Positions 18,044 to 19,643 of a stretch of 32,916 nt of DNA are shown here, in pieces; positions within the stretch are counted from its first letter, which is position 1; each line of letters opens with the position of its first letter. Below the pieces are notes generated by a model. That model was not told where the DNA came from. It ran no database searches and was given only the letters and a program-made list of their open reading frames with translations. A program made the translations under genes and the position numbers. Source of the DNA: Bacteroidota bacterium (GTDB lineage: Bacteria; Bacteroidota; Bacteroidia; Bacteroidales; VadinHA17); contig JAUZNW010000021.1 of NCBI GenBank assembly GCA_030706785.1, positions 1 to 32,916 on the forward strand, in the 5' to 3' direction.

Positions 18044-19399
18044 TCAGAATGTAATTTTCGATATTGCCTCTTCTACCTCGGTAACGGTCAGCTCATGATC
18101 TGGCAGGTTATTCTCGAAATACTTCTCATAGGCTGAGATATCAAGGTGTCCGTGGCCGCTAAGGTTAAACAGGATGGTCCTTGAAACACCTTCAAGATCA
18201 GCTTTTCTCGCCTCATCAAGAGCTCCGGCAATTGCGTAGGTCGATTCAGGGGCAGGGAGTATGCCCTCGGTCCTTGCAAAAAGAATTCCTCCTTCGAAAC
18301 ATTCCCTCTGCATCTTCGCCTTTGCCTCTATGAATCCGTCTTTAAGCAACTGGCTGACAAGAACACCGGCTCCATGATAACGCAGTCCCCCTGCATGTAT
18401 CTTTTCAGGTATAAAGTTATGCCCCAGGGTGTACATTGGAAGAAGCGGTGTCATACCTGCAGAATCACCGAAATCGTACATGAATTTCCCGCGGGTCAGT
18501 TTGGGGCATGATGATGGTTCAACTGTTAGTAACCTGATTTTCTTTCCATTCTGAAAAAACTCGCGAAGGAACGGGAAGGCAATCCCGGAAAAGTTGGATC
18601 CGCCGCCGAAGCAACCGATAACAACGTCAGGATAGTCACCTGCCTTTTCCATCTGTAACAGAGCCTCCTGCCCGATAATGGTCTGATGCAGAATTACATG
18701 GTTGAGAACGCTCCCGAGTGAATATTTTGTATAGGGATCCTCGACTGCTATTTCCATTGCTTCGGAGATTGCAATACCAAGGCTTCCCGGAGAGTCAGGA
18801 TCCTGCTCAAGGATTTTTCGGCCTGCAGCTGTCATTGTGGAAGGAGATGGAATTACTTTTGCATTGTAAACATTCATCATAAGCTTTCGTCCCGGTTTCT
18901 GATCATAGCTTACTTTCACCATAAAAACGAGAAGCTCAAGTCCGAAATGATTGCAAGCAAAGCTCATAGCACTTCCCCATTGTCCTGCACCTGTCTCCGT
19001 AGTGATCCTCCTGACACCCTCCTTTTTATTGTAATAGGCCTGGGCTATTGCAGTGTTTGCCTTATGGGAGCCTGAGTAATTACCGCCCTCATACTTGTAA
19101 TAGATCTTACTCTTTGTGCCAAGTGCTTTTTCGAGACTTACCGCTCTGTACAACGGAGAAGGACGATAGAGCCTATAGAGGTCAAGAACCTCATCGGGTA
19201 TGTCGATATACCTTTCGGCTGAGACTTCCTGTTTAATAAGTTCCATGGGAAATACTGCTGTAAGCGCTTCAGGCCCTATGGGCTGGCGGGTTGCAGGATT
19301 CAGAGGGGGCAAAGGTTTGTTTGGCATGTCGGCCACAATATTATACCATTGCCTGGGCATTTGTCTTTCGCTTAATAAGATCTTTCTGATTTTTTCCAT
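18044..19399 (-). CDS. trpB2: TrpB2-type tryptophan synthase beta-like PLP enzyme
   Basis: 451 aa; RQWYNIVADMPNKPLPPLNPATRQPIGPEAL, GRPSPLYRA-like RLYRPSPLYRAVSLEK, GSHKANTAIAQAYYNK (PLP Lys), GCFGGGSNFSGIAFPF. Extended N-terminus typical of TrpB2. Confidence 0.93.
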   Translation of the reverse strand: MEKIRKILLSERQMPRQWYNIVADMPNKPLPPLNPATRQPIGPEALTAVFPMELIKQEVSAERYIDIPDEVLDLYRLYRPSPLYRAVSLEKALGTKSKIYYKYEGGNYSGSHKANTAIAQAYYNKKEGVRRITTETGAGQWGSAMSFACNHFGLELLVFMVKVSYDQKPGRKLMMNVYNAKVIPSPSTMTAAGRKILEQDPDSPGSLGIAISEAMEIAVEDPYTKYSLGSVLNHVILHQTIIGQEALLQMEKAGDYPDVVIGCFGGGSNFSGIAFPFLREFFQNGKKIRLLTVEPSSCPKLTRGKFMYDFGDSAGMTPLLPMYTLGHNFIPEKIHAGGLRYHGAGVLVSQLLKDGFIEAKAKMQRECFEGGILFARTEGILPAPESTYAIAGALDEARKADLEGVSRTILFNLSGHGHLDISAYEKYFENNLPDHELTVTEVEEAISKITF

Positions 19400-19439
19400 T
19401 GTCTTAAAGTATTAGTGGTTAGTAAAAAATTTTAAAATA

Positions 19440-19468
19440 AAAAAGGCACGCTGTGAACAGCGTGCCTT
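19440..19468 (-). terminator. Intrinsic terminator/attenuator upstream of trpB2
   Basis: Minus strand AAGGCACGCTGT-TC-ACAGCGTGCCTT followed by TTTTATTTTAAAA: perfect self-complementary arms (19443-19454 / 19457-19468) and a T-rich tract. Confidence 0.92.
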
Positions 19469-19491
19469 AAATGATTAATATCCTTTAAAGA

Positions 19492-19566
19492 TTATATAAC
19501 GGCCTTATTCACAGCTTTGACTAGGTAGCTGCGCCAGGACCAGATATATAATTTCCCGTTTTTCAT
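19492..19566 (-). CDS. Trp leader peptide (MKNGKLYIWSWRSYLVKAVNKAVI)
   Basis: 24-codon ORF with TGG TCC TGG, immediately upstream of the attenuator hairpin and trpB2. Confidence 0.85.
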   Translation of the reverse strand: MKNGKLYIWSWRSYLVKAVNKAVI

Positions 19567-19571
19567 CGAGT

Positions 19572-19579
19572 CAAAAATA
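19572..19579 (-). promoter_or_regulatory. Bacteroidetes-type -7 box candidate (TATTTTTG = TAnnTTTG) for the trp leader
   Basis: Exact TAnnTTTG match 5 nt upstream of the leader ATG; no clear TTTG -33 box at ideal spacing. Confidence 0.5.
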
Positions 19580-19643
19580 GTAAATAAAATTAATCTGCAA
19601 TAAAAATAGTATTTTATTTTCAATTTAGCGCCTCCTTTATGAC

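Follow-up and report, generated by a model that had tools for sequence, protein, structure and literature searches.

A Trp Leader Peptide and Predicted Attenuator Ahead of Stand-Alone trpB2 in Uncultured Bacteroidales

The leader between aroA and trpB2

The window, by which we mean the whole stretch of 32,916 nucleotides that was analyzed (contig JAUZNW010000021.1, positions 1-32,916, assembly GCA_030706785.1), belongs to a Bacteroidota bacterium (Bacteroidales; VadinHA17). On its minus strand lie pheA, an aminotransferase gene, tyrA, a gene for a DAHP synthase-chorismate mutase, and aroA, followed on the same strand by the leader described here and then by trpB2 (18044..19399, ATG at 19399), which encodes a TrpB-like PLP enzyme. 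The product scores above the cut-off for both TIGR01415 (622.7 bits) and NF009057 (703.9 bits) and aligns with the solved TrpB2 proteins 6hul, 4qys, and 6hte, and its SHKxN (PLP lysine) and ETGAGQ motifs are intact.

An earlier note on this DNA described a Trp leader peptide and an attenuator ahead of trpB2, and our re-reading of the sequence confirms the observation and its positions. The promoter (19572..19600, minus strand, as are all features of the leader) consists of a TTG at 19600-19598, an 18-nt spacer, and the box TATTTTTG at 19579-19572. Five nucleotides past this box, at 19566, is the ATG of a 24-codon leader peptide ORF, MKNGKLYIWSWRSYLVKAVNKAVI with its stop (19492..19566), which contains the regulatory codons TGG TCC TGG (Trp-Ser-Trp; 19534..19542), the two TGGs being 19542-19540 and 19536-19534. 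The note had given the downstream terminator 12-bp arms. The intrinsic terminator itself (3:4; 19443..19468) stands, as AAGGCACGCTG-TTCA-CAGCGTGCCTT, but its stem has 11 bp around the 4-nt loop TTCA; it is followed by a T tract (19442-19437, tail TTTTATTTTA). The antiterminator strand, strand 2, is GCTGTGAA (19508..19515), and it pairs with TTCACAGC (19450..19457), which spans the terminator loop and the top of the 3' arm.

We also found a conserved protector hairpin (1:2; 19491..19552) enclosing the Trp codons, which was absent from the earlier note, as was the upstream partner of strand 2, CGCAGC. Folding and pair changes both place its lower stem at 19552-19545 with 19498-19491, together with TGG paired to CCG, and its upper stem at CGCAGC (19533-19528) with GCTGTG (19515-19510). 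The locus has the attributes of the attenuator class: a leader ORF with regulatory Trp codons, an intrinsic terminator before the gene, and protector, antiterminator, and terminator pairings that are mutually exclusive.

In Flavobacterium johnsoniae the G of the promoter box is at -5 (PMC6847099). The same spacing here predicts a +1 at 19567, one base 5' of the leader ATG, and thus a leader peptide that would be leaderless. Leaderless mRNAs make up 5.5% in Flavobacterium psychrophilum, and 3.7% of 5' UTRs in Bacteroides thetaiotaomicron are under 10 nt, so this would be a leaderless attenuator in a phylum where such mRNAs are a small minority.

The segment 19640-19707 (minus strand), which lies past the aroA stop but ahead of the leader promoter, forms two strong hairpins, CCCCC-ACA-GGGGG and TTACCCC-GTT-GGGGTAA (z = -2.8), with no T tail. 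They are followed by AAAGGAGG, 7 nt ahead of a TTG that is in frame with the leader ORF. These hairpins and AAAGGAGG are probably due to chance or an aroA end signal.

Conservation and covariation across trpB2 upstream regions

Conservation ahead of trpB2 orthologues had been set beforehand as the test of the attenuator reading, and the comparison of 80 plus 30 loci from relatives (overlapping sets) bears it out. The leader, with promoter, ORF, two Trp codons, strand 2, and terminator, is present in 55 distinct trpB2 upstream regions. In all of these except the divergent L070 (54/55), the start codon (ATG or GTG) is exactly 24 nt before the first Trp codon, and Trp occupies codons 9 and 11 in 54 of 54; both TGGs are invariant among the 52 aligned leaders. 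A promoter box TAnnTTTG lies 4 to 6 nt ahead of the start codon in 52 of 54 leaders and ends 5 nt from it in 47 of 54, and 45 of the 52 leaders with a box have TTG or TTTG 16 to 23 nt upstream of it. The peptide beyond the second Trp is weakly conserved, and the position of the stop codon wanders. The leader region folds at z = -4.4 relative to dinucleotide shuffles.

Pair changes were counted on the 52 aligned leaders, with covariation controls that do not remove relatedness. Changes on both sides occur in 22 of the 35 pairs of the protector hairpin and terminator, namely, in 10 of the 17 pairs of the protector lower helix, 4 of the 7 of the upper, and 8 of the 11 of the terminator. The competing structure that the earlier note proposed, strand 2 paired with the terminator (GCUGUGAA with UUCACAGC), holds as well: this 2:3 pairing is formed in 95.9% of cells, shows compensatory changes in 6 of its 8 pairs, has 14 double-change cells versus 2.4 in shuffles, and falls to about 16% when the partner is slid by one base. 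Covarying versions include GCTGTAAA with TTTACAGC (L053 and L055), CTGTGTA with TACACAG (L028 and L084), and GCCGCTA with TAGCGGC (L070). The strand-2/terminator duplexes average -13.0 kcal/mol with their own partners versus -11.65 kcal/mol when permuted (0/10000 permutations).

These data bear on an alternative explanation, that the hairpin is a plain terminator of aroA-cluster transcription and the Trp-rich ORF is there by chance. The hairpin does lie downstream of aroA on the same strand, and intergenic terminators are common. However, the Trp codons, the start distance, the promoter box, and strand 2 are conserved along with the hairpin, the antiterminator pairing covaries, and the combination is rare elsewhere. 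An automatic rule (a Trp-rich short ORF, then a terminator) fires in at least 55 of 94 distinct trpB2 upstream regions, even though its strict terminator criterion misses the real leaders L004, L006, L009, L031, L033, L181, and L187, versus 8 of 3000 stretches drawn at random from these loci and none of 2000 shuffles. Conservation already refutes the plain terminator, which we regard as highly improbable.

It is likewise very improbable that the RNA structure is kept for some other reason and the TGG codons only as hairpin pairs. The first TGG does pair with CCG in the modeled lower stem, but G32 and G33 of the second TGG are invariant though unpaired in the model, and the Trp-rich ORFs of other families differ in sequence (WWLWR, WWW, WCWR, and WRWRW). 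Across six other families, trpB2 is preceded by such differently worded ORFs, with the motifs NWWLWR, YWRWR, NWWW, NWCWR, CWRWRWWH, and WRWRWQ. In four of the six, the complementarity of strand 2 to the terminator top beats most or all shuffles (1, 1, 27, and 0 of 500 as low); in L181 it is no better than shuffles (118 of 500 as low), and for L187 the script chose the wrong hairpin. Four other trpB2 carriers (G058, G046, G043, and G053) have no visible leader, and the distant trpB2 genes of Chitinophagaceae, Saprospiraceae, and others are mostly without one. An attenuator responding to Trp thus remains the best reading of the trpB2 upstream region, supported by both conservation and covariation.

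The leader has been lost in at least three members of the genus, G017 and G020 (terminator traces only) and G030 (nothing left). All three genomes have a trp operon, but three cases are too few for a link. No leader was found upstream of trpB2 in L022, L040, or L047. In L019 and L020 (the same as L097 and L098), the interval from aroA to trpB2 retains the terminator alone and has lost the promoter, the leader ORF, and strand 2, so that trpB2 seems to have joined the aro transcript there.

Folding switch and proposed mechanism

The switch was examined by folding the window transcript as it lengthens, with an assumed ribosome footprint of 11 nt beyond the A site. Without a ribosome, the protector hairpin has a probability of 1, and the terminator reaches 0.82 with 117 nt exposed and 0.97 with 118 nt. 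When a ribosome occupies either Trp codon, the probability of the antiterminator is 0.96 to 1.0 at 114 to 120 nt exposed. Once the terminator is fully exposed, it wins at equilibrium even with a stalled ribosome; thus, the switch must be kinetic, with read-through dependent on timing.

The earlier note had also proposed that a ribosome running to the stop codon covers strand 2. This fails in the window, where such a ribosome would cover only the end of the strand. As a general rule it was dropped, since the position of the stop relative to strand 2 varies: the ORF stop ends 18 to 54 nt past the first Trp codon, which is before, within, or beyond strand 2. It is the 1:2 hairpin, rather than ribosome masking, that holds strand 2 off the terminator in the window.

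With high confidence, we therefore favor control of the stand-alone trpB2 by transcription attenuation of the classical, ribosome-dependent type, with charged tRNA-Trp as the sensed signal. The anatomy, the conservation, the covariation of both alternative pairings, the folding switch, and the gene content were established by computation; we infer the leaderless start, Trp-dependent read-through, and the use of indole in the cell. The first transcribed base would lie one position 5' of the leader AUG. With Trp in sufficient supply, the ribosome would clear both Trp codons, strand 2 would pair with strand 1 in the protector hairpin, and the terminator would form, halting transcription ahead of trpB2. 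Under Trp shortage, a ribosome would stall on one or the other Trp codon, covering strand 1 together with the protector stem's left arm. Strand 2, now free, would pair with the terminator's loop and top as these emerge, delaying terminator formation so that the polymerase could read into trpB2. TrpB2 would then convert indole and serine to Trp, the indole being supplied from outside in the window's genome, which is without TrpA, TrpB1, TrpC, and TrpD. The leader thus probably turns on Trp synthesis from indole when Trp is short. Its mechanism is standard; its target and setting are unusual.

Besides this role in cis, either the peptide or the leader RNA left by termination, about 130 nt long, could act in trans in the manner of rnTrpL/peTrpL. 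In Sinorhizobium meliloti, rnTrpL, whose start coincides with the trpL ATG, acts on trpDC mRNA in trans (PMC7298713), and the predicted leaderless start and strong terminator of the window leader resemble it. The cis mechanism, however, explains the conserved bases, and the peptide end is not conserved; we consider an additional trans role unlikely.

Genome context and relation to known Trp leaders

The earlier note had found control of trpB2, rather than of a trp operon, less expected; it makes sense in a genome without other trpB, trpA, trpC, and trpD. The window's genome, a metagenome-assembled genome (MAG) that is 97% complete with 6.5% contamination, has a single TrpB-like match, the window's own trpB2. 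No TrpA, TrpC, or TrpD was found in it, and each of these families was detected in 14 of 14 control genomes; TrpE of one relative, used as a query in a search without a control, had no match in it either. Fourteen of the 35 other sampled members of the genus likewise lack TrpA, TrpC, and a second TrpB (TrpB1). MAG incompleteness could explain single operon-less cases but hardly this many. A TrpF-like (PRAI) orphan in the window's genome (G000:C17:893-1549; L201) lies beside glyoxalase-like and HtrA-like genes; it was rejected as a hidden operon, as it stands alone among unrelated genes.

The leader might instead be a relic, an attenuator copied from a trp operon and out of use since the operon has gone. 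Relatives do have operon leaders of the same kind, and leader remains (terminator only) persist in L019 and L020. However, the leader is intact, with compensatory changes, in 14 of 14 operon-less genomes of the genus that could be assessed, the window's included (in G035 the upstream region is cut by a contig end), and we consider a relic very unlikely.

The role of trpB2 outside trp operons is debated, and a second function such as serine deaminase has been proposed; Pyrococcus horikoshii kept trpB2 after loss of the other trp genes for a reason that was not identified (PMC1854888). A Trp-specific attenuator implies that in these bacteria trpB2 is called for under Trp shortage, in line with Trp synthesis from indole, and the leader makes this role directly testable. 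The TrpB2 of Thermococcus kodakarensis is described as making Trp from free indole and serine without TrpA (Hiyama 2014, as cited in PMC11085991), and the window's TrpB2 would likewise use free indole. Most genus mates have a tryptophanase-family protein (below the TIGR02617 cut-off), but no tryptophanase-like protein was found in the window's genome, so that its indole would come from neighbors. The leader points to uncultured Bacteroidales that probably depend on the indole or Trp of their neighbors. We think it somewhat probable that Trp-sensing control of stand-alone trpB2 is widespread in Bacteroidales and identifies the enzyme there as a dedicated, indole-fed source of Trp. If so, lineages can drop the de novo trp operon and keep one attenuated gene that depends on their neighbors' indole.

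The earlier note had likened the leader to the Bacteroid-trp RNA (RF01692), listed by Weinberg et al. in 2010 (PMC2864571). The general kind is right, but the model does not detect the window leader, either at gathering (49 bits) or among matches up to E = 10. In relatives, RF01692 gives 43.6 bits for L044 and 35.7 bits for L070, below gathering, and its matches there are leaders of trpE or trpB1 operons. As in Bacteroid-trp (Bacteroidales), the window has a Trp-rich leader ORF, a strand 2 ending in GTGA(G), and a complementary terminator loop region, and its leader lies upstream of a trp biosynthesis gene (trpB2) in Bacteroidetes. Unlike Bacteroid-trp, it precedes trpB2 rather than trpE or trpB1, has W-x-W rather than WWW(H), and combines a predicted 1-nt 5' UTR with a long protector stem. 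We class the trpB2 leader as a Bacteroid-trp variant; the two are devices of one kind and probably share descent. No Rfam family matches the window at gathering, so the leader adds an RNA that Rfam does not detect; the weak listings (RmaA, tsr26, and others) were set aside as mostly terminator-hairpin matches.

The enterobacterial trp leader (RF00513) shares the 1:2, 2:3, and 3:4 logic and the Trp codons beside strand 1, but it controls trpEDCBA rather than a single trpB2, and the window's strand 2 differs in pairing with the terminator loop and stem top. The window scores 16.4 bits with this model, below the gathering cut-off of 41, as do L044 (36.2 bits) and L053 (35.3 bits). S. meliloti trpL/rnTrpL is, like the window leader as predicted, a leaderless Trp peptide attenuator on a split trp gene, but it controls trpE(G), belongs to another phylum, and has known trans-acting products (PMC7298713). 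The nearest precedent is the candidate Trp attenuator of trpB2A in Corynebacterium diphtheriae (PMC1262725), also predicted upstream of a second trpB; there, however, trpB2 shares an operon with trpA, and the case comes from one genome of the Actinobacteria. Leader-peptide attenuation upstream of amino acid operons has been noted in F. psychrophilum (PMC9723704). A literature search that covered a minority of subscription papers turned up no description of stand-alone trpB2 under Trp attenuation in Bacteroidota, which is weak evidence that none exists.

We built a model, R1, from trpB2 leaders alone. It recovers the trpB2 leader in nearly every member of the genus (70 to 146 bits), and in most members with a canonical trp operon it gives a second, weaker match at the operon head. 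Elsewhere in the class it finds trpE leaders and one trpB1 leader. R1 and RF01692 partly find each other's trpE or trpB1 leaders; class-scan matches near 30 to 40 bits are a mixture and were left out. A plus-strand R1 match at 19377-19481 of the window was taken as the near-palindromic terminator read backwards. The canonical operon heads of the genus (L191 to L195) carry Trp leaders of the same kind, mostly below the RF01692 cut-off, with a promoter-to-ATG distance of about 20 nt or more, and hence are not leaderless. One further R1 match (L173; G136:C3:53487-53599), directly upstream of a HisG-like gene, may represent a His leader whose terminator is similar.
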